Below the pieces are notes generated by a model that did not search any database, was not told where the DNA came from, and worked only from the letters and a program-made list of their open reading frames with translations. From a virus, in the IMG/VR virus record IMGVR_UViG_3300021197_000701, positions 1 to 32,680 of that record: a stretch of 32,680 nucleotides of DNA; one strand, given 5' to 3'. A program made the translations under genes and the position numbers. Shown piece after piece: positions 5,368-22,374 of the stretch (positions are counted from its first letter, which is position 1; each line of letters begins with the position of its first letter).

Positions 5368-6090
5368 GTGTTATTCATAGATGATAGAGAAAATCCTAAA
5401 GTCTCAAACAAAGTTTTAATGGCACTCGGTGACAATAATCTTAATCCTGAAGGCCATGCCAAGTTAGAGCGATTGTCCGTTGGTGACTATACTATTCCAG
5501 ATATGGGATGGGGTGTAGAGGCCAAAGAAATTAATGACTTATATCATTCAATCAAAGGCAATGGTCGTTCAAGAACGGTTAATGCACAACTTGTTGATTT
5601 AGCGGACAATTTTGATGTTGCTTTTCTTGTAGTATATGGCACTCAACTAAAGCCGTTTGTAAAAGGAAGAAAACCTACTAGGCAAGAAATGGCTATACGA
5701 ATACAGCGAATGAATGCAACCATCAAAAAATATAAAGAGACCTTGCATATTCGTCACCCAAAAATTAAGTTTATGCAAGTCGATAGTATGGATGACTTCG
5801 TTGAGTGGATAAAGACTAACTACACGCAAATGATTATCCAAGGAAAGAGAAATATGCACCCATTTTTAACGGGGGGTGTTATGGAAGAAACTGACCCACG
5901 GATAAGAATGTTATGTGGTGTTCAAGGCATTACGCCACACATAGCAAAAGACCTATTGGCTAAATATGGCTCAATACAAAAAATACTCGATAAAAAAATA
6001 ACCCAGAAAGAGTTGATGAAAACTAAAGGGATAACTAGGCAACGGGCTAAACAACTAAAGAATGCTTCTAATTTGTGGGAAGATGGTTGA
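5368..6090 (+). CDS. ERCC4-family (Hef/XPF/Mus81-like) structure-specific nuclease
   Basis: A 240-residue nuclease starting at GTG. The ERCC4 domain begins at once with FIDDREN (D5, D6, E8), then SVGDYTI (D40), GVEAKEINDLYHSI (E51, K53, D57) and a core strand AFLVVYG. The family signature is usually GD..ERK..D; here the arginine is replaced (EAK). Two helix-hairpin-helix motifs follow at about 185-235 (CGVQGITPHIAKDLLAKYG and TKGITRQRAKQLKN), so the arrangement matches the nuclease half of archaeal Hef or XPF without a helicase. Such enzymes cut branched DNA such as flaps, forks or recombination intermediates. The GTG start puts the first domain strand at the N-terminus, as in the family; no earlier start is in frame before the preceding stop region. 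The stop overlaps no gene but is 1 base from the next ATG. Confidence 0.9.
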   Translation: MLFIDDRENPKVSNKVLMALGDNNLNPEGHAKLERLSVGDYTIPDMGWGVEAKEINDLYHSIKGNGRSRTVNAQLVDLADNFDVAFLVVYGTQLKPFVKGRKPTRQEMAIRIQRMNATIKKYKETLHIRHPKIKFMQVDSMDDFVEWIKTNYTQMIIQGKRNMHPFLTGGVMEETDPRIRMLCGVQGITPHIAKDLLAKYGSIQKILDKKITQKELMKTKGITRQRAKQLKNASNLWEDG

Positions 6091-6178: not shown

Positions 6179-6281
6179 TTAGACCAGACCCAAGAAAAAA
6201 GTAAAATGCTAATTCTAGCAGAAGTAAGCCTATCATGATAGGTAAAGGCATACATTGGTTTAAAACGCAAACATCGCTCAT
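6135..6281 (-). CDS. Small membrane protein at the end of the virion operon
   Basis: A 48-residue protein: MSDVCVLNQCMPLP, a membrane span (IMIGLLLLELAFYFFLGSGL), then a basic tail IKVIKALSTKQEEK. Its ATG overlaps the stop of the 2225-residue tail protein as ATGA (6281-6278), the same coupling used elsewhere in this operon, which is good support for translation. It is the last gene of the block. Its position after the tail genes and its topology would allow a role in lysis or membrane attachment; there is no specific family match. Overlaps a plus-strand peptide gene head to head. Confidence 0.65.
   Translation of the reverse strand: MSDVCVLNQCMPLPIMIGLLLLELAFYFFLGSGLIKVIKALSTKQEEK
6136..6180 (+). 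terminator. T-rich stretch, possible transcription terminator of the plus-strand block
   Basis: About 45 bases rich in T, with runs of five, four, three and four Ts, lie just after the ERCC4 nuclease gene on the plus strand, where convergent transcription must stop. Archaeal termination often occurs on T-rich tracts without a hairpin. The stretch also codes for the peptide at 6092-6178, so the T content may be due to hydrophobic codons. Confidence 0.25.
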
Positions 6282-9200
6282 AGATTCCGTGTTCCCCCAT
6301 TCTTTAGACCTAAGAATCGGTATGTGTCCGAACGACCACTAATAGCAGCTCTAACAAACTTGACATCGACTTTGTGTAATACTACCGAGCAATACTGTGC
6401 GGTAGTAGTGTCTTGGCCTTGATTTGCCTGTCTTCTTAGTGTTAGTTTGATAGTGTTTCCAGGAGTCTCCGCACCGGATAGTGGGCCACTAATAATAGCA
6501 ATATCTCTATTACTAAATGGGCTTTCTAGGCTTACCGTAGAGGTCATTGAAGCACCAGTCTCCACACACTCTAGGGTAGCAAATAGGGCTACGCTACCTG
6601 ACGCAGCATCTAGTGAGGAAATACCACTAACTACTATTTGTTGCCCCATTACATCACTAGGTACGGTTACTCGTAGTGTATGTTGGTGAATAAAGCCTTT
6701 TGTGTCTGCATCATTATCGGTAAGGCCTGGGAAAACAGCACCTTCTTTTGAAACAATAGAACCACGCTTTTTGTCCCACACTATGTCGGCCCCTTCGACA
6801 GCCTTTGTTACTTGGGTTGGTGCGCCACTATTTTTAGAACCGAGAATACTAAAGTCCCCATCTTGCAAACCGTATTGGTTGTGCATATCCATTTTACCTG
6901 AAATCCTATTCATTAAATCCGGAGTTGTATTATTAACTCCTATCGCATTACTACCAAGCATTTGTCCGGCAATATCACCTGATGATACACCGGCAAAGTT
7001 TCTGTTTCCTACAGGTGTGTATTGGTTTAAAGAAATACCCTCGCCTAAAACTGGGCCTAGAACTGGGCCTCCGCCTAATGGTGGCGCAAGTGGTGGTCTA
7101 TAACCCCCACCGCCTCCAGGCCCACTTCCACCACCACCGCCTCCAGGAGATGGTTGGGGTGAATATGGTATTGTTCCAGGAGTTCTTCCTTTGTTTATTT
7201 CAGGCAATATATAGGATGCTAAATTAGGTAACGCTTTAGATTCGTCTTGTTCTAGCATTAATGTAAGTTTTCCAATATCGTATGATTGCGCAGCCCAATT
7301 AACAGATTTAATAGAAAATGGAGTAGGGTTTGAAAGACCAAGGTTTGCATCGGTATAAGTTACCTTTGTCGATGGGTAAAAGTTTATGTCATCGACCACA
7401 CTAATTCGTGGAGCAAAATAAACCGGTGCGTCTTGTGCGGTAGGAATACCTGCTATATTTCTAATGCCTAATGGGAATGGCGAATAGGCTCTATATGTAG
7501 AGGTATTAAATCCAGGCATATCTTCTTTATTTGCATAATATGGGTTAGAGGTAGGTTTTCCGTTTCTGTGGCGTAACAAAGAACGCAGGTACTCGGCGTT
7601 AATAGAAACAATAATTCTTTCATTACCGGTAGCACCATTCGCACCTGTCCAATAGGTTGAAGGGATTTCTACTTCGTAGAAACCACTATGCTTAAACTTC
7701 AAAAAGGTTCGTGAGCCGTAATCGTCTGTAATAGAGTGACCGGTTGAATTATCGGAAAAACTTGTATTAGGGTCGTATAGTGCTAGGTAAAACTCTACAT
7801 CTTCGGGTGTAGCCTCATCCTCATCATAGTGTTGGGCTAATTGTATTCCGACTCTAAGTTGTTGTCCGGCAGCTGCGTTAGATGTTTTAGGCATATTTTT
7901 AGGGATATGGACTATTTGGACAGCATCGGAAACAGATTTTAAGCCGACCCAACCATAGTAATGTTTTGCTGGTTCGTCACCGGTATTGATATAACTCACG
8001 CCACCTCCGTTTGTGTGGCCAGTAGTATTTCTATTGTAAGAATTTAGTGTGCTACCCATCCAAGAAATGTTTCCATCTAATGCGTTTTGCATTCCTGAAA
8101 AGTGTATTCCATTCCACCATGAAGTCCAACCTTGCGCTACTAACCCAGCGATTAGTGGGGTATTTACACTTCTAAGTGCTGGGTCTTGGATATATCCATG
8201 TCTAGCACCAAATAACATAAGGTCGGATTCGGTTGACTGGATAGTTGGTGAAGCAGTAATTCTTAGTGGTGAAACCTTACTCTTTTCGTATGTTGATTTT
8301 GCTATTGCTAGTGCCTCACGATGAGATACTACATTAGGCAACTCTAACATTTTCCATCTTAGTTCTGTTCCTTTACTTGCGGTTGGGTAATCCACAAACG
8401 AGGAACCATTATTATAAAAAATTCTTACATTTGAAACAGCAGCAGTAGGTGAACCAACTATGTCAGATATTCTAAGGTTGTCTCGTGTAAATACATGACC
8501 GGATGAATATGCTGGTCGAAAATCTATTCGCCCATCTCTACCAGTAACATAGGTAAAAATAGTTGTGGAGTTTTCACTTCCGACCTTTGTTGTATCGCCC
8601 ATATCTGTTAGAATTGCTAACACACTTTTTCCTCTAGCATCGGATATTCCACCGTAACTATCCCAATCTAACACACCTCCTGAAGTTGCGGTGTATGCAC
8701 GAGTACTACCATCAACGGTTGTTTGTGTTGTAGTCATTCTTCTAGTAATAGGACAATTCTTTATGCTAAAGGTGATTGGCATTGTAAATTGACTTAGGTG
8801 CGTTTCGCTGTTTGCTAATACACCCAATGCTCGCAATTTGTCGTGCGAGTAGAATGTATGTCCTTCTCTACTTTCAATAAATCCGTTTAGTCCCAATTGG
8901 AATCTTAGTGCTAGTGGTGCTGATATTCCCGAGTAAAATACTATTTTATCGTAACCATCAGTGATATTGTTAATCGAGTCATTATATTTTAGTGTAAAGG
9001 GTATTCCTGTTGTCGTTGCGGCTGATTGGGTGTAAGTCCTCCAAGCATTAAACAATCGTGACTTTATTTCTTCTAGAGTCATTTGTGTTTCATCTAAGTC
9101 AAACATGTGTATATTGCTTAGGGTATTTGTTGAGGTGTTATTTGCGCCCCAATAGTAAAACAATAGATTTCTTTCTTGGGTATTGGTATTGCCTGATGTT

Positions 9201-12200
9201 CTTTCTATTTCGACCATACCTATTCCCTTTGATGGGAACTCGGAAGTATCATCAAGGACTATTGCGTTTGAACCTTGTGCATAGGTATTTGATGACATGT
9301 TAGAACCAGCACTAAAGAAGTTATACCAATTCGGGTGATTAGATAAGTCTCCATCACGAACCGTCTTGGGTGATGCTGCTGCTTCTTGCCAATAATCATC
9401 TATTAATGCGGGGTGACCTTCTGTTTCAACAACAAGGTCTCCTAATGTTTTTCGACCACCACTCTTTTGTCCTGCCCTGCCACCGTTTGATTCGGTGTTT
9501 AGATTAAAGAACTTAGAAAAATCTATTATTAAAAATGCACCGGCTTTATCCTCCCAGTTTTGGTGCGCTGCATCCCCTAGTGCATCGGAGCCTAATGATG
9601 ACCACGAATTGCCACTATACGGTTCTATTTCGGCATCACATTCCCATATGTCACAATCCATACCTATTGCTAAATCAATGTAGTTTATAGCAACACCATC
9701 AATATCTTCTTGGTCGGTATATTGAAGTGTTAGTGAATAGTTATCTGGTGTAGGGTGTAAAAGACCAAAACTATTTTTTCTTATGTGTCCGTCGGCATTT
9801 GCTTCGCCGTTGTTTCTCATATCGGCCCAAAGAACCCAAATGTGTTTATAATCATCGGATATGGTTCTAATTCTAATCGTTGAGCCTACGGCGTGTGTTA
9901 AAGAAATAAACTTACACCCATCTAATCTAATATAACCACCCGAGTTTGTAGCACCAGAAAAGGAGAACGAGTCAACTACACCTTGTGGGGTTACTAATTC
10001 GGCTACACCACCGGCATCTAAAACTGCTTCTATGGCTCCTGTGCGACCTATATCTGTAAAAACATTTGTTGAAGCAGGAACAACCACCGAAGTTGTAGTT
10101 AGTCCTGCGTATGCTGGTGTTTCGTCGATTTTTCCAAACATCTTTTTGAACCACAATGACTTAGGTAAATCACGCATCCACATAGCATGGTTGACACGAT
10201 TTTTTACTAAAGCAAAGTCACCGTCTGTATTAAAGGTAGTACCACTAGAAGTAGTGTGTAGGTCAAAATATCCGTAATCCCAATAAACATTCCACGGCCC
10301 TGCACCAGAAGTGAATGCACTTAGGCCGGTATATGTTGCTGAAGAATTGACTTTAGCCCAAGGCACATTGGTAAAAAGGTAGTAGTCAAAACCTGTACCT
10401 GCATAATTAGTTACCTTTTCAATACCATACAACTCAAAAACATCATTACTTATGCCACTAATGTAAGTTCCGGTTTTATTAAATGTAATACTTCCTAATT
10501 CAAGGTTTTCGGGGATAGTGCTAAATGAACCAGCATCAAGCAAAAATGCTGCATAGTCGGTTGACGAACCATCTTGCTCCCATCTTACTGCGTAAGTTGT
10601 CTGTGCGTTTGCTGATGGTGGGCCACCCGCTACGGAAAATATGCTGCTGTCACTATCAAAGGTAACAGCATCCACTAACTTGTTTGTACCATCTATTGAT
10701 GTATTATTGTCGGCAGTACCATAGATATTGACCGTATCGGTTGCAGCAAGACCATGTGAAGGCATAGACACACCTGTTTTGCTAGAAACCAATGAACCAT
10801 CAGCGTTTTGCATAGGGAATAGTACTTGTGACCTTTTGTAAAGCCAATTTAACTCTACATCGTTAGGTGCAGATGCGTCTTCGTTATTATACAATTGAAT
10901 GGGGTGAGCTGAATGTAATGTTGTTCGTTGGTCTTTCTTTTCTAAATAGTCTAGTGATGAAGCACTAGCCGATGAATACTTTTCAAAACCAATCGAGTCG
11001 TCGTGAAGACTTAGTCTTACTGCGCCAAAGTAAAGGGCATCCGATAATGCCTCGGCTGAGCCCCTTTTGGCGATTGATTTATCCGTGTCGTCACTAAATA
11101 ATCCTTGACCAATATCCCAAGTTGGTATTTGTCTATCTAATAATTTAGCGGGGTCGGTGCATGAAATGCTTACCGTTTTGTTTTGTTGTTTAGCAATTTG
11201 TCTTACCCTAACGCTGTTTATATTACCTGACATTATGAATCTATCGTCATTATTTCTTGCTATCATAAACAGATATTCTGCTGAACCCCCACCACTTATT
11301 AGTGGGTATATGTCAAGATTATTTGCATCATCACTAATCTCTACTGATAAATCCGAGAAACTGTTAGATGCCATATTGTATGACATAGTAGTAAGTACCG
11401 GTGTACCTAAGTGACCACTTGGGTATGCAGTATCAGAAGTAGCAATTGCTGGAGCACCACCACCAGCACTAGCGGTCTTTCCAAGATGATGTGTTACATT
11501 TCTTCCGAATGCAACCCTGTCAACCATAATAATTTGTTGCCATGCGTACACATTGGTATTGTTTTGAGTGTGGCCGTCGTCAAAATCTCTACCCAAGCAA
11601 GATAACTTCCAACCGTAAAATTGCGATGGAGTCCAATCAGAACTATCGGGGGATGCTGTGAATGCCGTTACAGCCCCACTTGCGGTTCCGTTGACAAAGA
11701 GTTGGTATGATTGATTAGTGAAATCCATTACTACATCAAAATCAACCCACATATCTTCCATTTCGATAGCATCTGTACTAACTAATCCGGCTGGTTTGCT
11801 ATAAACGGTTTCGGTTTTGTTGTAAAGAGCGTGTGCTAACTTGGTATAGATTGTTGACCAATCAATTTCTATCTTGATTGCAGGGTTGCTTGCACTACCA
11901 TCTGCGGTCTTAGTTACGCCGGTTGAAGCAAAGGTTGTAGTTTCCGAGTCGAATCCTATACTAAGATAGTTTAGTGGGGATTTTGTTTTTACATTTGCAT
12001 CATCAAACGAGCCGGTTGTTTCTAATCCAGAAAAACTTTGTGCGCACAATCTAATGTGAAATCTATCTTTATTTCCCATAGCGTTTAGAGTTCCATCGTA
12101 AAGCATGAGGATTTGTTCGCCATGAGTCGCAAATGTTCTAAATGCCTTTTCACAAAACCACTTAGTATCTAATACCATAAACGGCTTTCCACCCAAAGAA

Positions 12201-12955
12201 GTTATTGGAACACCAATACCTTCTCTATGTGTTAGATTTGCGCTTTCTCGTGCAAAGGATTGCCATTGGAACATACCGGTCATATATGCTTCACGACGAA
12301 GTACTTGTTTCATTGATGCACCACTACTTGCTGCTGCCCCAATATCAATATGATTCCCAGCTTGGCTATGTTTATTACTACCGCTAGTTGCGCTGTAATC
12401 TTTAATGTCACTTCTTCCGTATGAACCATCGTTGTCTATTGGGTAATAGTATTTAGTACCGGTTCTATACGGGTTATTTACCATCATGTAGCCGTCAGCA
12501 CTGGTAGCACCGGTCATAGCATTAGTTGTTGTGGCTGTTGTAGCCCTATTTTGATGGAAAAAGGATTGTGGGGAGCGAGATGTGGCTCTACCTTCCCAAT
12601 TTTCACCACCACCTAATCTAATAGTGTCCTTTGTAATAAACTCGTGTACGCCGTTGTTATGCAACTCTCCGCCCATCTCTGATTTTCCATAATGTGTAGA
12701 GACAGGATAATAATTAGTAAGGTGTGAACCGCCACCTGCTTGTGCGGCAAAACTTTGTCTTTCGATTACCGAATATCGGTATGTAGGATTTAATACGGCT
12801 TCGCCATTAATTGTGTTGCCTGCGTGGGATAGTGTGTGGTCTATTGTAAAAGAGTCAACGCTATTTTTATCATCGGCAATACATTGCGAGCCATTAAAGT
12901 CATCATAGTAACCACTAATCCAAGCCACATATTTATCTGTAATTTTCCTTGTCAT
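6278..12955 (-). CDS. Giant tail hub/fibre protein (2225 residues)
   Basis: The largest gene, directly after the tape measure, where siphoviruses carry distal tail and tail-associated proteins. Residues about 300-490 look like a LamG/concanavalin-type lectin domain (WVDFDVVMDFTNQSYQLFVNG, then IIMVDRVAFGR split by strands). About 530-610 and 1440-1580 resemble tail-hub (gp27/gpJ-like) segments, e.g. VSISCTDPAKLLDRQIP and KSVLAILTDMGD with later EALAIAKSTYEK. About 1930-1975 is a Gly/Pro-rich linker (runs of G, then PPLAPPLGGGPVLGP). The last 140 residues form a beta-rich domain that may bind ligand. No catalytic motif recognised. ATG follows a GGAAGTGA Shine-Dalgarno site; stop overlaps the ATG of the next gene. 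It probably forms the tail tip and touches the host surface. Domain borders are approximate. Confidence 0.7.
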   Translation of the reverse strand: MTRKITDKYVAWISGYYDDFNGSQCIADDKNSVDSFTIDHTLSHAGNTINGEAVLNPTYRYSVIERQSFAAQAGGGSHLTNYYPVSTHYGKSEMGGELHNNGVHEFITKDTIRLGGGENWEGRATSRSPQSFFHQNRATTATTTNAMTGATSADGYMMVNNPYRTGTKYYYPIDNDGSYGRSDIKDYSATSGSNKHSQAGNHIDIGAAASSGASMKQVLRREAYMTGMFQWQSFARESANLTHREGIGVPITSLGGKPFMVLDTKWFCEKAFRTFATHGEQILMLYDGTLNAMGNKDRFHIRLCAQSFSGLETTGSFDDANVKTKSPLNYLSIGFDSETTTFASTGVTKTADGSASNPAIKIEIDWSTIYTKLAHALYNKTETVYSKPAGLVSTDAIEMEDMWVDFDVVMDFTNQSYQLFVNGTASGAVTAFTASPDSSDWTPSQFYGWKLSCLGRDFDDGHTQNNTNVYAWQQIIMVDRVAFGRNVTHHLGKTASAGGGAPAIATSDTAYPSGHLGTPVLTTMSYNMASNSFSDLSVEISDDANNLDIYPLISGGGSAEYLFMIARNNDDRFIMSGNINSVRVRQIAKQQNKTVSISCTDPAKLLDRQIPTWDIGQGLFSDDTDKSIAKRGSAEALSDALYFGAVRLSLHDDSIGFEKYSSASASSLDYLEKKDQRTTLHSAHPIQLYNNEDASAPNDVELNWLYKRSQVLFPMQNADGSLVSSKTGVSMPSHGLAATDTVNIYGTADNNTSIDGTNKLVDAVTFDSDSSIFSVAGGPPSANAQTTYAVRWEQDGSSTDYAAFLLDAGSFSTIPENLELGSITFNKTGTYISGISNDVFELYGIEKVTNYAGTGFDYYLFTNVPWAKVNSSATYTGLSAFTSGAGPWNVYWDYGYFDLHTTSSGTTFNTDGDFALVKNRVNHAMWMRDLPKSLWFKKMFGKIDETPAYAGLTTTSVVVPASTNVFTDIGRTGAIEAVLDAGGVAELVTPQGVVDSFSFSGATNSGGYIRLDGCKFISLTHAVGSTIRIRTISDDYKHIWVLWADMRNNGEANADGHIRKNSFGLLHPTPDNYSLTLQYTDQEDIDGVAINYIDLAIGMDCDIWECDAEIEPYSGNSWSSLGSDALGDAAHQNWEDKAGAFLIIDFSKFFNLNTESNGGRAGQKSGGRKTLGDLVVETEGHPALIDDYWQEAAASPKTVRDGDLSNHPNWYNFFSAGSNMSSNTYAQGSNAIVLDDTSEFPSKGIGMVEIERTSGNTNTQERNLLFYYWGANNTSTNTLSNIHMFDLDETQMTLEEIKSRLFNAWRTYTQSAATTTGIPFTLKYNDSINNITDGYDKIVFYSGISAPLALRFQLGLNGFIESREGHTFYSHDKLRALGVLANSETHLSQFTMPITFSIKNCPITRRMTTTQTTVDGSTRAYTATSGGVLDWDSYGGISDARGKSVLAILTDMGDTTKVGSENSTTIFTYVTGRDGRIDFRPAYSSGHVFTRDNLRISDIVGSPTAAVSNVRIFYNNGSSFVDYPTASKGTELRWKMLELPNVVSHREALAIAKSTYEKSKVSPLRITASPTIQSTESDLMLFGARHGYIQDPALRSVNTPLIAGLVAQGWTSWWNGIHFSGMQNALDGNISWMGSTLNSYNRNTTGHTNGGGVSYINTGDEPAKHYYGWVGLKSVSDAVQIVHIPKNMPKTSNAAAGQQLRVGIQLAQHYDEDEATPEDVEFYLALYDPNTSFSDNSTGHSITDDYGSRTFLKFKHSGFYEVEIPSTYWTGANGATGNERIIVSINAEYLRSLLRHRNGKPTSNPYYANKEDMPGFNTSTYRAYSPFPLGIRNIAGIPTAQDAPVYFAPRISVVDDINFYPSTKVTYTDANLGLSNPTPFSIKSVNWAAQSYDIGKLTLMLEQDESKALPNLASYILPEINKGRTPGTIPYSPQPSPGGGGGGSGPGGGGGYRPPLAPPLGGGPVLGPVLGEGISLNQYTPVGNRNFAGVSSGDIAGQMLGSNAIGVNNTTPDLMNRISGKMDMHNQYGLQDGDFSILGSKNSGAPTQVTKAVEGADIVWDKKRGSIVSKEGAVFPGLTDNDADTKGFIHQHTLRVTVPSDVMGQQIVVSGISSLDAASGSVALFATLECVETGASMTSTVSLESPFSNRDIAIISGPLSGAETPGNTIKLTLRRQANQGQDTTTAQYCSVVLHKVDVKFVRAAISGRSDTYRFLGLKNGGTRNL

Positions 12956-12969
12956 TTACTTCACTTCCA

Positions 12970-15900
12970 CTATACTCCGGCACTATTTAGTGGTACACCT
13001 GCTTGCACCAACTGACTCATAACGCCACTTGTCACTTGTTCTATTGCATCTCCTATTGTTATGCCGTTAAAGTTATTTGTCATAACTAACTCGACATTGG
13101 AATATAAGTTCTCTACGCCTTTATTAACAACCTGCTTCATCATGTCGCCGGTTAGGTTAGAGGATTTGCCACCAAAGAATAATTCTTCTCGTGCGCTAGC
13201 AAAAGAGCGCATTTTTTCTTCGGCGGTAGTGAATCCGTCTCCTGCTGCGTCGATACCATCTATAATACCTCCGTTTTGGTAAAATGTGTCGGCTGCCATT
13301 ACAGCATTATTACCCATTTGTAAAAAGAACTCACGACCTCTATCGGTTAGGTCACTCATTTTAATAGTACCATCATTAAGTGCTTCTAGTAATTCTTCAG
13401 TAGTTTCAATTATCATTTCTTGGTCTGCATAAACATTAACTGTTTCATATTGCTTTGTTCTTTCGGCCTGACCACCAGGCATATCACTAACCGGAGATTG
13501 GCCTGTGACCTCTACCTGTTTTGTTCCTGTTTTTACCCGCTTCGTGTATCTTGCTAGGTCATAACCTTCACCATAAAAACCAGCACCTTCTGGTGCATAT
13601 ACATTTGGCCCAGTAATCATTTGACGACTTAGTGCATCTAAAGTTTTTGAGATTTTTTGCTCATCGCTTAGACCTTTTATTTGTTCGCCGAACTCTGCAA
13701 TAGCACCTTGTTTTAATATATTTTCAAACTCTACTAATGCGTTAATGTCGTTTTGAATCATCGAGTAAAACGGGTCATCGGCAGCATATATTGATTGGTC
13801 CTCCTTCAAGTTCTCCATCACATCCTGACTGTGTTGTAAAGCCACATTAAATTGGGTTAATGACATAGTGGTTAAGTCAATTGCCTTGGGGAAATCCTTT
13901 TGGTAGGATGTGATTGCCTCGGGAACTGCATACGATTGTGATTCCTCTAAAGACATATCAGCAAGTAATTGTCCAGTTGCGGCTAATGAAGCATTCATGC
14001 CATCGACGGCTACTATTGCATCGGTTGATTCTCGGACTAATGACCCAATTGCTAAAGCGGTTAAAACTAATGCTGCACCTACGCCTGTTAATACTGCTGT
14101 TACGCTTAACGCTGCGTTCATTCCCATAATAGAAAATGCAGCCAAATCGGCCATAGTCTTAATACCCATCATTTGAGCAGTCATTATACCCATTTGGATG
14201 ATTGCCGGTATCATACTCATGGTCATTAAAATCATGGATATACGCATAGATTCGTTAGCGTCATCGGTTAGTCCTATGTGGTGGCCTAGTGTACCAACGG
14301 CCATAGAAAGCACCCCAGACATCATTCCTAGACCATTGTATGCGGCACTCATTCTATGTATCGCAACGGTTTGTGTTTCAACACCGGTAAGTAATTTTCT
14401 TTCTTCAATTATTAACATCTTTTTCTGCAAAAGTGCAATCGCTTCGGCTTCACTTAAACCGCCCCTCACTGCTGTGAGTGCTGCTATTGCTTCTATTTCG
14501 GCAATGGTAAGGAACATAAGTTCTTTCTTTTCCATACCTAAAGATTCCATTTGCATAATTATTTCTTCATTAAGCATTGCTGCTCTAGCATCAACACTAA
14601 TCATTTCTTCCTTTGCAAGAATACCAAGTTCATCCTCTATTCGGATTCTTTTTAACACCGCTAATTCATTTTCAGCCTTAGCAATCTTTACATTTGTTTC
14701 TTTTAATTCTATTTTATTTTTCTCTTTACTAGACTCGAAGTGTCTGGAGCGAGCATGTATTTTTCTTTCTAAGGTAACCGCTAGTTGGTGTTCTCTTGTA
14801 AGTTGTTTTTCAACCGCAGTTATATTTTCACCTAACCGCATTCTTTGGGTATCGGTTAGTGTTTTATTCATAACTATTAATGTGCGGATTGCGTCTCTTT
14901 CTCCCTCAGCCATTGCGGTTGCAGTCATTTGTAAAGCGGCTAGTTCTGTTCGTCTATTTACTTGTCTGTCTAGCAAAACATTTCTTTCCTGAACCAAATC
15001 ATTAAGTATTTGTTCTCTATTAGCAATACCAATTCGTTTCTGGTCAGCCATATCAATTTTAACGCCTTGTATTTCTAGCAACTCGTTATATTCCATTTGC
15101 TTACCGTTTATCAGATTTGCTACAACAAGTTGTTCTTGTTGTATAGATAATCCTGCCATACTAAGGTTTTTTGCATTTTTAAGATTGTCTGTACGAATAA
15201 GTTCTTCGCCACCAACTGCTCGTAAAACCGCATTGTATGTTTTCATAGCAATGGAAACCGATTTTATTTGCATCATCATATCAAATACTCTACCAAATGC
15301 ACCTAAGTAGTTTTGCATTTGAACAACAAATACACCCATCTTACCGAACATAGGTATTGTTGATAATTCCATAAATGCGGTATTGATTTTTGTTTGGAAC
15401 TTAACGAACTCGGTCATTGTGGGAAGCAATCCCTGACCCATTTGTGCTTGCACATGTTCTAAGTCAGCAAGTGCTTCTTTATACAGGGTTGATGCGTCAT
15501 CAGTAACACGGTTAACTTCTTCTTGTGCGGTTGCTTGATTGTTCATCGCATCTTCGTGCAACTCGGTCATTCTACTCGAGTTTTGAATTAACTTTACGAA
15601 TCTAACATAGTGGTCGTTACCAGCAACGGTCTGAACAATGTTTTGTCTTTGCTCAGCAGTTAATCGTGGGAAAACATCTGCTAACTCTAAAACTATTTCA
15701 GACATTGGGCGTAATGCGCCTGATGCGTTTTTGGTTTCGATACCATATTGCTTTAGTAAATCGTTGTTATTTTGTATGTTAGAACCTAATCTAGCGTATA
15801 TCATACGCAATGCTCTACCGGCTTTACCCTGTTCTTCACCTGCTTCAATCAATGTAGCCGACATAGCGGCCATCATTGCCATTGATTCGCCTGTTTGGTG

Positions 15901-16545
15901 GGCTTGGGCAGCGAATTGATTCATAACGAATGTAATTTGCTTTAAGTTGGCTGCGGAACGGTTCTCAACAGTGTTTAGTTGGTCTAAAATCTCTAATGTA
16001 TTACCCATTACAGTTTTTCTTTGGTTTTCCGCATCAAGTAACTTGAATTGTTTAGCCGTCAAATCACCATACATGAAGCCGGTTTGCTGTTGTAAGTTAA
16101 TCATACGCTGCATTGCTTCTTCTGTACCCATACCGGAAATCAAAGCAAATTGCTGACCTAACTCGGTAGCAGTAGCAGTAGCCGCTTCACCAACTACTGC
16201 AGACAACTGTGCCATTCGGGAACCAGCGGATAGTGCTTGTTCAGCAGTAAATCCAAATGCCGCACCGGTGTCGATAATTTCCGCTGCTAATTCTTTGTTT
16301 TGACCGGCGAACTTCTCGAACTCGATAGTCGCTTCGGAAAGTGCTATACCTAAAGGTAGTATTTGGTCAACTATACCACTAATTGTTTCTCCAATACCCA
16401 TTAGGGATTGTCTAACACCATCTACTGCATCAAGCATTAGCGATTCGACAACCGCCATTTGTGCGTCAACATCTTTGATAAGGCGAGCCGCTTGGAATGT
16501 TCCTATGATGTCGAAGAATACCCTTGGGCCACTTACCATTGCCAT
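12970..16545 (-). CDS. Tail tape measure protein
   Basis: A 1191-residue protein that sets tail length and occupies the tail lumen. The N-terminal 400 residues resemble the TP901-1-type tape measure core, with Ala/Gln-rich helices (AAEIIDTGAAFGFTAEQALS, MMAAMSATLIEAGEEQGKAG, RALRMIYARLG). About 465-730 is long coiled coil (LVQERNVLLDRQ, ELKETNVKIAKAENELAVLK). About 738-842 is strongly hydrophobic with several possible membrane spans, as often found in tape measures that help DNA cross the membrane. The C-terminus has a small globular part. It follows the frameshifting chaperone, the classical order. At roughly 1.5 angstrom per residue the tail would be near 180 nm, a rule-of-thumb estimate. 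GGGGGTG lies before the ATG. Confidence 0.93.
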   Translation of the reverse strand: MAMVSGPRVFFDIIGTFQAARLIKDVDAQMAVVESLMLDAVDGVRQSLMGIGETISGIVDQILPLGIALSEATIEFEKFAGQNKELAAEIIDTGAAFGFTAEQALSAGSRMAQLSAVVGEAATATATELGQQFALISGMGTEEAMQRMINLQQQTGFMYGDLTAKQFKLLDAENQRKTVMGNTLEILDQLNTVENRSAANLKQITFVMNQFAAQAHQTGESMAMMAAMSATLIEAGEEQGKAGRALRMIYARLGSNIQNNNDLLKQYGIETKNASGALRPMSEIVLELADVFPRLTAEQRQNIVQTVAGNDHYVRFVKLIQNSSRMTELHEDAMNNQATAQEEVNRVTDDASTLYKEALADLEHVQAQMGQGLLPTMTEFVKFQTKINTAFMELSTIPMFGKMGVFVVQMQNYLGAFGRVFDMMMQIKSVSIAMKTYNAVLRAVGGEELIRTDNLKNAKNLSMAGLSIQQEQLVVANLINGKQMEYNELLEIQGVKIDMADQKRIGIANREQILNDLVQERNVLLDRQVNRRTELAALQMTATAMAEGERDAIRTLIVMNKTLTDTQRMRLGENITAVEKQLTREHQLAVTLERKIHARSRHFESSKEKNKIELKETNVKIAKAENELAVLKRIRIEDELGILAKEEMISVDARAAMLNEEIIMQMESLGMEKKELMFLTIAEIEAIAALTAVRGGLSEAEAIALLQKKMLIIEERKLLTGVETQTVAIHRMSAAYNGLGMMSGVLSMAVGTLGHHIGLTDDANESMRISMILMTMSMIPAIIQMGIMTAQMMGIKTMADLAAFSIMGMNAALSVTAVLTGVGAALVLTALAIGSLVRESTDAIVAVDGMNASLAATGQLLADMSLEESQSYAVPEAITSYQKDFPKAIDLTTMSLTQFNVALQHSQDVMENLKEDQSIYAADDPFYSMIQNDINALVEFENILKQGAIAEFGEQIKGLSDEQKISKTLDALSRQMITGPNVYAPEGAGFYGEGYDLARYTKRVKTGTKQVEVTGQSPVSDMPGGQAERTKQYETVNVYADQEMIIETTEELLEALNDGTIKMSDLTDRGREFFLQMGNNAVMAADTFYQNGGIIDGIDAAGDGFTTAEEKMRSFASAREELFFGGKSSNLTGDMMKQVVNKGVENLYSNVELVMTNNFNGITIGDAIEQVTSGVMSQLVQAGVPLNSAGV

Positions 16546-16556
16546 ATTAACACCCC

Positions 16557-16841
16557 CTATTGATTTTCAAAGTCCGTCAGCATTTGTATTGCATCACTTT
16601 CCGATATGGCATTATTTTTAGCCGCTTGCCTCGCTTGGTTGCGACGAGCAATAACACCTTTGATATTGGATGATGAGTTAGACTTACCTTTAGAAGTTGC
16701 GTCTGAGATTTGCCTTGAAACCTCACTAGCAATCTCAACATCTAACTCTAGTCTGTGCAATCCCCCTATACCGTGGTACTTCTCGTATAAGTCCGAGGGA
16801 AGAACCCCCTTGAAAGCACTTGCTAGTAATGGTGCTACTCG
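16557..16841 (-). CDS. Frameshift extension of the tail assembly chaperone (T-like part)
   Basis: Open in the -1 frame from the end of the upstream chaperone gene, coding 94 residues that begin RVAPLLASAFKGVLPSDLYE and then YHGIGGLHRLELDVEIA. No ATG starts it; only a TTG at 16760 would give a 67-residue piece. The LPSDLYEKYHG..LHRLELDV pattern is what one expects for a GT extension that contacts the tape measure. Joined after Pro117 of the upstream product it makes a 211-residue protein. Helical, with a basic Arg/Lys stretch near the end (ARRNQARQAAKN). It ends 11 bases before the tape measure ATG. The fusion is inferred from frame continuity and gene order. Confidence 0.75.
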   Translation of the reverse strand, partial: RVAPLLASAFKGVLPSDLYEKYHGIGGLHRLELDVEIASEVSRQISDATSKGKSNSSSNIKGVIARRNQARQAAKNNAISESDAIQMLTDFENQ

Positions 16842-17191
16842 GGGGAAGAGTCCAAAGGGATTGCGCCCTCTGGGTCATCGCCACGGACAAATCCGAGAAT
16901 AGTACGCATTTCTTCTGAAGTTAATGAGTTTAAATCAAAATCTTCTTCTAAAATACAGTTAGGAACCCACGAAGTCATTTGGTCTTCTAGTGAACCACCA
17001 AGTTCTTCGATATGGGATAAAAAGATTTCGTTTTGCTCGATAGTCCAATCTTCGGGGCTTCCGAAATCACGGCATTTGCGTACCGCTTTCGCTTGGATGC
17101 TTTCGATTTTAATTTTTTCAAGACCCGAGGCTTGGCGAACCCAAACCTTTGTTCCGTCTCCTAATTCAATTTCCTTTTTTAGTACTGGCAC
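16835..17191 (-). CDS. Tail assembly chaperone (G-like part)
   Basis: A 118-residue acidic protein, beginning MPVLKKEIELGDGTKVWVRQ, just upstream of the tape measure, with helical middle (EKIKIESIQAKAVRKCRDFG) and an acidic end. Position, size and the open -1 frame after it match the gpG/gpGT chaperone system known in lambda and many long-tailed phages, where the short product and the frameshifted long product coat the tape measure before tube assembly. The start is GTG at 17191, inside the previous small gene (26-base overlap, different frame). Sequence similarity to known chaperones is not obvious by eye, which is usual for this family. Confidence 0.75.
   Translation of the reverse strand: MPVLKKEIELGDGTKVWVRQASGLEKIKIESIQAKAVRKCRDFGSPEDWTIEQNEIFLSHIEELGGSLEDQMTSWVPNCILEEDFDLNSLTSEEMRTILGFVRGDDPEGAIPLDSSPE
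16838..16846 (-). other. Likely -1 ribosomal frameshift site
   Basis: In the zero frame the minus strand reads TCT TCC CCC GAG TAG. The run of five C lets the Pro tRNA on CCC slip back one base onto CCC without loss of pairing, two codons before the stop. The -1 frame is then open for 94 codons. It does not fit the classical X XXY YYZ heptamer perfectly, and no strong downstream hairpin was seen by eye. Confidence 0.65.
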
Positions 17192-17303
17192 TTTTCTTCA
17201 CACTCTTCTTTTCTTTCTTCTCTTTTTTTGGTGGTATTACTTCGTAATCACCATTTTCTTTAAGACGGTACACTGTACCATCTGGTTCAGTCCACTCATC
17301 CAT
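17166..17303 (-). CDS. Small lysine-rich protein, unknown
   Basis: A 45-residue frame starting MDEWTEPDGTVYRLKENGDY and ending in a basic tail (PPKKEKKEKKSVKKSASTKK). A GAGGTG Shine-Dalgarno site that contains the stop codon of the preceding gene lies before the ATG. It overlaps the chaperone start by 26 bases. The N-terminal part looks like a two-strand hairpin, the tail looks disordered and could bind nucleic acid or an acidic protein such as the neighbouring chaperone. No family recognised. Confidence 0.6.
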   Translation of the reverse strand: MDEWTEPDGTVYRLKENGDYEVIPPKKEKKEKKSVKKSASTKKGN

Positions 17304-18093: not shown

Positions 18094-18108
18094 AATCACC
18101 TCAAATAC
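18094..18108 (-). promoter_or_regulatory. Stop-embedded Shine-Dalgarno site (15-base repeat copy 1)
   Basis: The minus strand reads GTATTTGAGGTGATT. TGA is the stop of the tail tube gene and GAGGTGAT is a near-perfect match to the 16S anti-Shine-Dalgarno. The same 15 bases occur at 27135-27149 after the capsid gene. Confidence 0.7.
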
Positions 18109-19141
18109 TGGAAGTTGCGTTTATTACATCACAAGTTGCCATAGCCTTCTTTGTTTCATCGAATAGTGCGGTGAAACCTAGAGACATTGTTTGTGTGTCA
18201 CGACCAGATACATTGCTTGATGGTGCATCCCACTGAACATTGTAAAGTTTAATGGTAGTAGTGTGTGCTCCTGTTGCTGAGAAAACAAGTGTAATTGCTG
18301 GATTACTGGAACCTGGTTGATATACGGTGTTTGCTCCACCGTCAATAATGTTACCGAAAATTGGTTCGTCTAGGCTAGTGGCGTGAACTGGGTTAATAAA
18401 CTCAACTGTTCCTGTAATTTCACGGAGTTGTGGTGGTGCTTCACGAACACATGTGTCACTACCAAGTGCGAAAGATGCGTCAACATCACGGTTTAAATTA
18501 AACTCGATGTCAACGGATTTTACGATTGTTGATTTAGCAGACCCCTTAAACTTAACTTCAGCTGATTGGAAGTGAACTGGTTCTCCAGCATCAGGTACGG
18601 TTGCACCCGCTTCAGCCGCTAGTGCTGCTGGGGATGAAACGGAATCTTCACCTTCGGCTTTACCTACGAAATCAACGCCCATCATTACATATTCACCAAC
18701 CGCTCCTTTAATAGAAACACGGTTAATGCTTAGAGATGTGTAGGAATGTTCCTTTTCATCACGCATAACAATTATTTGATATACTGGGAATGCAGTTGAT
18801 GCCGCACGACCTTCATTATGTGTAATTTCAGTCATTGCGTGTGTGTATGGGTCTCCCGAACCTGTTGTGGCTACCTTAGGAAAAATACCTTTTAATACTA
18901 AAGCAGCGAAACCGGAATCGTCAAGGGCCATGTTGATAGAACCTTCGCCATATCTCTTTCCAGTCTTTGTCTTTGTTGCTCCATATCGTGTCATGTCCGA
19001 GCGTGTATTTACATCGAAAACTGTTTGAAATGACTCGTCATCTATTAATCCATAGAATTGTGAGCCACTACCTACTGTTCCGAATGATGTTTGTTGACGC
19101 AGTAAGACACCACGATTGCCTGTTCCTATTGTGTAAGCCAT
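18101..19141 (-). CDS. Major tail tube protein
   Basis: A 346-residue beta-rich protein placed before the chaperone and tape measure genes. It starts MAYTIGTGNRGVLLRQQTSF, typical of phage tail tube proteins of the long type, and has a later segment ITGTVEFINPVHATSLDE and an end motif (DTQTMSLGFTALFDETKK) of the tube fold, where strands build the inner barrel. Residues about 160-210 may be an inserted surface domain. A TTCATATAC promoter lies 39 bases upstream in an otherwise empty 49-base gap, consistent with high expression. No sheath gene follows, so the tail is probably non-contractile. Confidence 0.8.
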   Translation of the reverse strand: MAYTIGTGNRGVLLRQQTSFGTVGSGSQFYGLIDDESFQTVFDVNTRSDMTRYGATKTKTGKRYGEGSINMALDDSGFAALVLKGIFPKVATTGSGDPYTHAMTEITHNEGRAASTAFPVYQIIVMRDEKEHSYTSLSINRVSIKGAVGEYVMMGVDFVGKAEGEDSVSSPAALAAEAGATVPDAGEPVHFQSAEVKFKGSAKSTIVKSVDIEFNLNRDVDASFALGSDTCVREAPPQLREITGTVEFINPVHATSLDEPIFGNIIDGGANTVYQPGSSNPAITLVFSATGAHTTTIKLYNVQWDAPSSNVSGRDTQTMSLGFTALFDETKKAMATCDVINATSSI

Positions 19142-20241: not shown

Positions 20242-20910
20242 TCACCTTGCATTATATCCTAAGTTCTTCCTTAAAAACGCATTCATTCTTGGTTCGAAGT
20301 GAACATCAAAATACTTTTCGGCTATGCCTATGAAGTCATAACGCTTGATTGGACTAGAGCCACCAATGCCTGGAAATTGGAATGGTCTCCCTGCTTTTTG
20401 TAAAATAGGGAACTTAGCAAAGCGTGACGAACCTCTAAATGAAGCTGTGTTCCAAACAACCTTCTTTTCTTTTTTCTTCATATCAAAGCCATAATCCCAC
20501 GGCCCCTTTTGCTGTGAATAAAGCACTGCTAAATCAACACCGCTACCACCACCATTGTCACGACGAGGACCTAATGGTTCTGGAGCAACATACATTCTAG
20601 AGCCAGCATATTGTCCGTGTTCAATATCCCTTACATCTATTGCGTCGGAAATAATACCGTAGGCTTCGTTTTTTAAACTAGAAGAAAGGGAAAGACCATC
20701 AAACTTTGCATCATCAGCAGCATCACGCATAACATCGTGAATTAAATCTTTAAGGTCATGCTTTAGTTTATGCTTGATGCTTTGCATGTATTGGGTTAAT
20801 TGGAGTTTATTCATTCGCATGCCAAAGCCCATGCCTTTACCATTAGAATCCCAACTCGCTCTAGTCTCCCAACCACCAGAACCACCCATACGGGTTGAGC
20901 CTTTACCCAT
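20242..20910 (-). CDS. Probable neck/tail completion protein (gp10-like)
   Basis: A 222-residue basic protein with a glycine-rich start (MGKGSTRMGGSGGWETRASW), a helical part (YMQSIKHKLKHDLKDLIHDV) and a C-terminal part with AGRPFQFPGIGG and a final helix (MNAFLRKNLGYNAR). Helix-then-strand layout and position between connector and tail terminator match HK97 gp10-type completion proteins. Its ATG overlaps the stop of the acetyltransferase gene as TAATG. Function is inferred from context. Confidence 0.55.
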   Translation of the reverse strand: MGKGSTRMGGSGGWETRASWDSNGKGMGFGMRMNKLQLTQYMQSIKHKLKHDLKDLIHDVMRDAADDAKFDGLSLSSSLKNEAYGIISDAIDVRDIEHGQYAGSRMYVAPEPLGPRRDNGGGSGVDLAVLYSQQKGPWDYGFDMKKKEKKVVWNTASFRGSSRFAKFPILQKAGRPFQFPGIGGSSPIKRYDFIGIAEKYFDVHFEPRMNAFLRKNLGYNAR

Positions 20911-21386
20911 TAGTCAAGCCTCCATATTTGTTGACTTGGTAAATATAACTTAGTGTATTCTTGGTATGTCATAATATCCGAGGCATCACCATATGACTCT
21001 ACTCTAGTATAGTTTAGTTTTTCAACTACCTTTACAAGATTTTTCATTTGGGATTCTTCTATTGGATTCAAAACGGTTACCTTTGTTATACCATCCATAT
21101 GTTCGGATTTGTTGCGTTCTTTTAGTAGGTGTGTGTGCAAACCTTTGCTACGCCATTCTTTGCGTACATAGGTGTTCCCTACCAATACAAAGCGTCTATC
21201 GTGCATCATTAGGGATGATGTGTATGCTATGGCTACATTATCGGCAAACAACACCCAATAAACCATATCGTTATACAATGGTGGGTAGCCTTTTTCGATA
21301 GGCGTTAAAATTGGACTACCCCAAATGACCTCTAAATCATCGTGCATTAGAATAAGCTCGATGTGAAAATTAGCATTAACATCCAT
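20910..21386 (-). CDS. GNAT-family N-acetyltransferase in the neck gene cluster
   Basis: A 158-residue protein with the GNAT acetyl-CoA motif: strand RFVLVGNTYV then RKEWRSKGLHTHLLKERN, where R-S-K-G-L-H takes the place of the Q/R-x-x-G-x-G/A loop, followed by strand KVTVLNPIEESQMKN and a final LNYTRVESYGDA segment. It would transfer an acetyl group from acetyl-CoA to an amine of an unknown substrate. It lies with TGATG and TAATG overlaps between a connector and a tail completion gene, so it is made with virion parts. The start is ATG at 21386; a TTG at 21389 is in frame. Targets could be a virion protein or a host protein. Confidence 0.75.
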   Translation of the reverse strand: MDVNANFHIELILMHDDLEVIWGSPILTPIEKGYPPLYNDMVYWVLFADNVAIAYTSSLMMHDRRFVLVGNTYVRKEWRSKGLHTHLLKERNKSEHMDGITKVTVLNPIEESQMKNLVKVVEKLNYTRVESYGDASDIMTYQEYTKLYLPSQQIWRLD

Positions 21387-21928
21387 CAATCGACACTCCC
21401 CATATGTGCTAGACGGCGAAGGTTATCAAGACCACGCTGACGAAGCACATTGGAGCGCATTCCACCTTTTTCATACTCTACACCCGATTGGAAAACGGAT
21501 TCATCTTCAAGATAGTAGGCGGCTGCTAGGTCGGCACATACTTCACGAAGGATATGTGCCATTTCACCTTCTTGTACGGGTACATCGTCTGCATGGTCAA
21601 AAGAAACTCCAGTAACTCCTGTAAGTGTGTGTGTGGATTTGCCAGTCCAAGCGAAAGAATCACCGTCAATGTTACCATTACCTGCTGACGCAAAATCTGT
21701 ACCGCTTGTTAAAACAATGCTTGTAGCACCGGCGGCTATTGCACCGTCTAATGTGGTTTCACCTATTTCACGACTAGGTGTTGTTCTTCCATATTGAACA
21801 AACTCCTGGTCTATGTCTATTGTAGCCCTGCGTATTGCACTTGTTAATCTGCTTCCTGCTCGTGTTCGTTGAGCGGAGTCTAGCCCTAATCTAGAGCCAG
21901 CGTCAGATTCGGTGCAATAATAAACCAC
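21386..21928 (-). CDS. Head-tail connector protein with inserted beta domain
   Basis: A 180-residue protein, starts at GTG: MVYYCTESDAGSRLGL, the common N-terminus of head-tail connector/adaptor proteins. Helices follow (RLTSAIRRATIDIDQEFVQY). Residues about 55-105 form an inserted beta module (AIAAGATSIVLTSGTDF, GDSFAWTGKSTHTLTGVTG) of a type seen in phage tail and fibre proteins, then the helical C-terminus (HILREVCADLAAAYYLEDES). Connectors close the portal and give the tail its docking ring. The GTG is 1 base past the stop of the preceding gene. The stop overlaps the acetyltransferase start. Confidence 0.7.
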   Translation of the reverse strand: MVYYCTESDAGSRLGLDSAQRTRAGSRLTSAIRRATIDIDQEFVQYGRTTPSREIGETTLDGAIAAGATSIVLTSGTDFASAGNGNIDGDSFAWTGKSTHTLTGVTGVSFDHADDVPVQEGEMAHILREVCADLAAAYYLEDESVFQSGVEYEKGGMRSNVLRQRGLDNLRRLAHMGSVD

Positions 21929-22083: not shown

Positions 22084-22374
22084 TCACTCAACAACATCTT
22101 TTATTTCTTCGATTCTAGCCAAAAGTTCTGCTTTAGTACCTTTAACTTCTAAACCGTTTTCATTGCATAAAGCAATCAAGTCATCCTTTTTCATTTTCTT
22201 TAGTGATGAAAGGGAAGGTAGTGATTTAGAGGCATCGACTAAATCTTCGGCTAAATCAAGTACTTCATCTAGCGTAATCTTTCCATCGGCCATTAGTTTC
22301 TTGTATGCTTGATAAGCACCTAACCCTAAACCAGCCGCAATAGCAGCATATAGCATAATCATTTCTGTTTCCAT
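22084..22374 (-). CDS. Membrane-anchored SAP-domain protein
   Basis: A 96-residue protein with an N-terminal membrane span (MIMLYAAIAAGLGLGAYQAY), an acidic helical linker (DEVLDLAEDLVDASKSL) and a C-terminal SAP domain (LKKMKKDDLIALCNENGLEV, then KGTKAELLARIEEI). SAP domains bind DNA, so this would hold DNA at a membrane. It lies in the virion operon between fibre and connector. Ribosome site TTAGGTGAT, which contains the TAG stop of the gene before, precedes the ATG. Possible roles: tethering viral DNA, or a virion internal protein. Fold call good; role open. Confidence 0.75.
   Translation of the reverse strand: METEMIMLYAAIAAGLGLGAYQAYKKLMADGKITLDEVLDLAEDLVDASKSLPSLSSLKKMKKDDLIALCNENGLEVKGTKAELLARIEEIKDVVE

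Follow-up and report, generated by a model that had tools for sequence, protein, structure and literature searches.

A probable lambda G/GT-type tail-assembly chaperone gene pair with a conserved CCCTTTG heptamer as the probable slip site for −1 frameshifting in a marine, probably archaeal, tailed virus

RESULTS

Organization of the chaperone locus

The stretch of DNA analysed here, below called the window, comprises 32,680 nt of the IMG/VR record IMGVR_UViG_3300021197_000701, with the chaperone locus on its minus strand. The order of genes is tail tube, chaperone and tape measure, with a Phage_tube_2 match upstream and a PhageMin_Tail match downstream of the chaperone (Table 1). The zero-frame chaperone gene ends TCC CCC GAG TAG, as the preliminary description had stated, and is overlapped by a −1 frame that has no stop from 16874 to the TAG at 16559–16557 and ends 11 bases short of the tape measure gene. 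When the 118-codon frame is joined to the −1 frame at the heptamer CCCTTTG, the fusion product has 211 aa, and both this size and the open frame running to just before the tape measure gene, as proposed earlier, were found to be correct. The claim that the −1 frame lacks an ATG could be upheld for its first ≈85 codons but not for its end, where one ATG is found (...IQMLTDFENQ); a TTG at 16760 yields a 67-aa ORF in this frame of the window.

Some further features of the minus strand were seen around the locus. A small ORF of 45 aa (MDEWTEPDGTVYRLKENGDYEVIPPKK...; 17166–17303) is located between a 172-aa gene and the chaperone, sharing 26 bases with the start of the latter, and downstream of the tape measure gene there is a single ORF of 2225 aa (6278–12955), probably encoding a large tail or tip protein. 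A SAP-like motif (LIALCNENGLEVKGTKAELLARI; 22084–22374) and a GNAT-acetyltransferase-like protein (20910–21389), as judged by eye, both sit within the structural gene module.

Table 1. Features of the chaperone locus, with positions in the window
Feature	Position	Strand	Properties
Tail tube protein, upstream of chaperone	18101..19141	-	Pfam Phage_tube_2 1.4e-13
Zero-frame tail assembly chaperone (gpG-like)	16835..17191	-	118 aa, GTG start, TAG stop; ORF and relatives
GAGGG, window version of SD-like GGAGG 5' of slip site	16866..16870	-	Weaker than in many relatives
Slippery heptamer C_CCT_TTG (X XXY YYZ, zero-frame phase)	16859-16853	-	TTR-type conservation 74/74; zero parsimony changes at six leading bases
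C-run put forward in the preliminary description	16841..16845	-	Only in window, L002 and L007; judged incidental
−1 frame extension (gpT-like)	16557..16853	-	98 codons past slip and TAG stop
Tape measure protein	12970..16545	-	1191 aa; ATG at 16545, preceded by GGGGGTG; Pfam PhageMin_Tail 4.7e-19; PHROG tape measure 1.5e-21

Relatives and coding status of the −1 frame

The 118-aa protein and two distant members served as queries for scans of viral contigs, a first scan giving 80 relatives of the zero-frame protein and later scans adding more. This resulted in 127 related viral loci having a complete zero-frame end, together with the window; some contigs occur twice among these loci, and 99 sequences differ from one another when both genes are compared in full. 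No relatives were found in isolate phage records or in bacterial and archaeal genomes. In nearly all relatives the −1 extension reaches 81 to 104 codons past the stop, with the shorter ones (L047, L096 and L116) running into contig ends, and where the sequence is long enough the extension is followed by a long ORF resembling a tape measure gene, with its start at −41 to +69 nt relative to the last base of the extension.

The extension could be aligned in 44 members, with a conserved motif RVAPxLxxAFKGxLPSDL, and dN/dS over 45 codons of the −1 frame was about 0.05–0.2 (about 0.1) wherever dS was measurable. The frame is open in every relative with complete sequence. As judged from these alignments, strong purifying selection acts on the −1 frame in the relatives and its openness exceeds chance, which bears out the conservation that the preliminary description had suggested to look for. 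Neither an independent start codon for the −1 frame nor stops within it, either of which had been named there as evidence against frameshifting, were found when looked for in the relatives.

A conserved slippery heptamer

It had been claimed that the locus lacks a canonical X XXY YYZ heptamer and that the ribosome slips at a run of five C. However, an in-phase C_CCT_TTG is present five codons ahead of the zero-frame stop, and it is this site, seven bases upstream of the C-run, that is strictly conserved. The codon pair at the slip site is CCT TTG in 65 of the 99 distinct sequences, CCT TTA in 9 and xxT TTT in 25, and C_CCT_TTR is kept in all sequences having TTR as the second codon (Table 1). 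Among these 74 TTG or TTA sequences the base preceding CCT is invariably C, while the codon to which it belongs varies between ATC, GTC, CTC, CCC and TGC. Elsewhere in these genes the share ending with C is 15% of Ile, 11% of Val and 10% of Leu codons, and CCT makes up 27% of the Pro codons.

On a tree of 73 TTR-type sequences, parsimony gave 12–25 changes (mean 18.1) for every third codon position within the upstream 60 bases and 0 changes for the two that fall in the heptamer (−1 and +2). Because these heptamer positions are unchanged while the amino acid at the codon before the heptamer (codon −1) changed 16 times on the same tree, the substitution pattern indicates that the constraint at the site acts on nucleotides as X XXY YYZ, and not on protein. 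The phase of the fastest-evolving column, finally, shifts from 2 upstream to 1 downstream, which is exactly −1, with the switch falling at the heptamer. A slip at the heptamer is expected to give the junction peptide GDDPEGAIPLGLFPR, a slip at the C-run would give GDDPEGAIPLDSSPR, and the tryptic C-terminal peptide of the zero-frame product is GDDPEGAIPLDSSPE.

Alternative explanations

The C-run itself, at which the preliminary description let the ribosome slip −1 on TCC_CCC just ahead of the stop, is real, lies inside the −1 overlap and would let CCC re-pair with CCC following the −1 move. It was nevertheless rejected on conservation as the slip site, since alignment with the relatives showed it to be absent outside the window and two other sequences. 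The nearest sisters (L003–L006) are without the C-run and yet keep the −1 frame, and in 36/99 sequences the zero-frame stop is found at or before its position, making slippage there impossible in those cases. Selection on the −1 frame is, furthermore, visible already upstream of the C-run, with base +12 being invariant in 88/88 sequences. The confinement of the C-run to three sequences, together with the position of these 36 stops, leads us to consider it incidental and a slip at this position very unlikely to explain the conserved arrangement, although a minor second slip there might still occur in the window itself.

Slippage at the heptamer also has to be weighed against synthesis of the −1 frame as a separate protein, either from an internal start or by re-initiation after the TAG. 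This would agree with the −1 frame ATG at +38 seen in 55/99 relatives, with a TTG at +32 in 17, and with the public virus protein A0A516MCV4 (85 aa), a match to the extension that was perhaps annotated as an ORF of its own. However, in 19 of the 99 distinct sequences, among them the window, neither ATG nor GTG nor TTG is found in the −1 frame as far as +62 (the first 19 codons of that frame), and with the +38 ATG being present in only 55 an independent start is not a general explanation, for which reason it was rejected. The conserved −1 codons (RVAP) sit upstream of the +38 ATG, and a separate start leaves the invariant heptamer unexplained, so that we find separate synthesis highly improbable. 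The arrangement also formally resembles a single-base frame disruption, such as would be seen in a decayed gene or in two genes separated by a mistake in sequencing or assembly; all relatives, which come from many independent metagenomes, have the break at one and the same codon, however, and the invariant slippery heptamer with purifying selection on both sides speaks against error or decay to an extent that makes the probability of this explanation negligible.

Possible stimulatory elements

The window carries AGAGGG upstream of the slip site, at the place of the SD-like GGAGG that many relatives have at −13 to −9 from the CCT codon. This GGAGG was found in 40/99 sequences, where codon usage would predict 5.1 (2000 randomisations, maximum 15), and in 34 representatives it was found in 13 versus 1.8 expected (maximum 7). 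Bacterial frameshift sites can have an upstream SD-like element (PMC8211752), and the element may stimulate slippage here. A conserved downstream hairpin or pseudoknot was not found, with a mean z of about −0.8 to −0.9 as compared to −0.25 to −1.1 in control regions, and a hairpin around the slip site of the window (−30 kcal/mol) is not common to the relatives. A strong hairpin (z −3.4 to −4.8) is present about 13–40 bases 3' of the slip codon in L121, L125, L129 and L130, but not downstream of the heptamer in their close relatives L123, L126 and L127.

Variants having UUU as the second codon

The TTT-type sequences form one clade in the tree, nested among the TTA types. A_CCT, G_CCT, A_CAT or G_CAT precedes TTT in 10 of the 25 distinct TTT-type sequences, and in none of the 74 TTR sequences; these variants (A_CCT_TTT, G_CCT_TTT, A_CAT_TTT and G_CAT_TTT) occur in L085, L091, L099, L102, L104, L107, L109, L113, L114 and L115. 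The perfect re-pairing of UUU to UUU is likely, judging from these variants, to make re-pairing of the first codon less necessary. A more far-reaching proposal, which we advance tentatively and regard as somewhat doubtful, is that this clade records a natural switch from tandem two-tRNA slippage to single-tRNA slippage once the second codon had become UUU, which re-pairs perfectly on U_UUU, with the upstream SD-like GGAGG serving as a general stimulator and with an archaeal host.

Identity of the chaperone

AlphaFold modelled the zero-frame protein with confidence as a beta-hairpin plus helices (pLDDT 91) and the −1 extension as all-helical (pLDDT 83). When its fold was compared with the PDB, the zero-frame protein came closest to the HK97 tail assembly chaperone 2ob9, which is a weak match (E 0.099, probability 0.77, TM 0.40, 12% identity). 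Sequence searches of Pfam, PHROGs and PDB with the window protein gave noise-level matches only. In the viral library there was one strong match to an unnamed protein (E 3.4e-13, 48% identity), with annotated tail assembly chaperones recurring among the weaker matches, and from the relatives two reached phrog_344 and one phrog_1613 (tail assembly chaperone), all weakly (E 0.01–0.03). What the locus shares with gpG/gpGT is the position between tube and tape measure, an open and coding −1 frame without a conserved start of its own, and a slip site; the earlier assignment to a tail-assembly chaperone having a −1 frameshift extension in the gpG/gpGT position is hence supported by gene order, frames and selection on the −1 frame.

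DISCUSSION

We consider it very probable, on the basis of the comparative sequence data, that the locus codes for a tail-assembly chaperone pair of the lambda G/GT type, with programmed −1 frameshifting at CCCTTTG as its mode of expression. Most ribosomes would then translate the 118 codons and stop at the TAG to give the gpG-like protein. In a minority, the tRNA-Pro on CCU and the tRNA-Leu on UUG would together move back by one base on C_CCU_UUG and re-pair with CCC and UUU, whereupon 98 more codons would be read in the −1 frame to give the 211-residue gpGT-like fusion. Many phages produce a long and a short version of this assembly helper through such a backward slip. Both gpG and gpGT of lambda attach to the tape measure protein, and it is through the T part that the tail subunit is bound (PMC5009743); by analogy, the G part of the present protein would bind the tape measure protein and its T part would recruit tail tube subunits. 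We infer the slippage, its efficiency and the chaperone function from the sequences compared here.

The slip site of phage lambda gpG/gpGT is GGGAAAG, while the heptamer found here is CCCUUUG; family searches show no sequence similarity between the two systems. Frameshifted tail chaperones at classical heptamers have been published for haloarchaeal viruses (PMC5009743, PMC7911831, PMC8211752), and the haloarchaeal siphoviruses HVTV-1, HCTV-1/2/5 and Hardycor1 resemble the present virus in gene order and in having a −1 shift at a classical heptamer. Archaeal gpG/gpGT frameshifts at such heptamers have thus already been published, and the present locus adds a member with a CCCUUUG site. The earlier statement that little work has been done on the slip sites of archaeal tail modules is by the same token true only in part, with several haloarchaeal heptamers being available (PMC5009743, PMC7911831). 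HVTV-1 has a heptamer of its own, G GGA AAG, which lies in phase at the equivalent place, shortly before the first frame ends, as compared to C_CCU_UUG here, and no sequence homology to the chaperone of this virus (Druskaviridae) was detected (hhalign probability 0.5%). The tail chaperones of the HF1-group haloviruses likewise have overlapping frames ahead of the tape measure gene, but these were published as using a +1 shift without a classical heptamer (PMC7230728), in contrast to −1 at a classical heptamer here. A G at position Z in YYZ is unusual among textbook heptamers (PMC8211752), and HCTV-5 uses G_GGA_AAG, also with G at Z (PMC5009743). Use of CCCUUUG in tail genes or in archaea was not found in a literature search of partial coverage.

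The window derives from a marine tailed virus for which an archaeal host is plausible. Its closest named DNA polymerase B matches are from haloarchaeal viruses (23–25% identity), PCNA and TFIIB were not found in large relatives, and neither host nor provirus was found in the bacterial or archaeal genomes searched. The plus strand of the window also carries an ERCC4 nuclease with helix-hairpin-helix (Hef/XPF-like; 5368–6090). Such Hef/XPF-like ERCC4-HHH nucleases are typical of archaea and their viruses, and HVTV-1 also encodes a Hef nuclease (weak match).

To our knowledge, few cases of −1 frameshifting in archaea have been demonstrated. The present analysis suggests that a wide family of tailed viruses, marine and probably archaeal, has retained the gpG/gpGT frameshift together with CCCUUUG as a strictly conserved heptamer, and in these viruses the second frame is easily overlooked or annotated as an ORF of its own. 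The natural variation at the site, with CCCUUUR being invariant and relaxed only together with UUU, as well as the SD-like element, may provide testable rules for archaeal −1 frameshifting.
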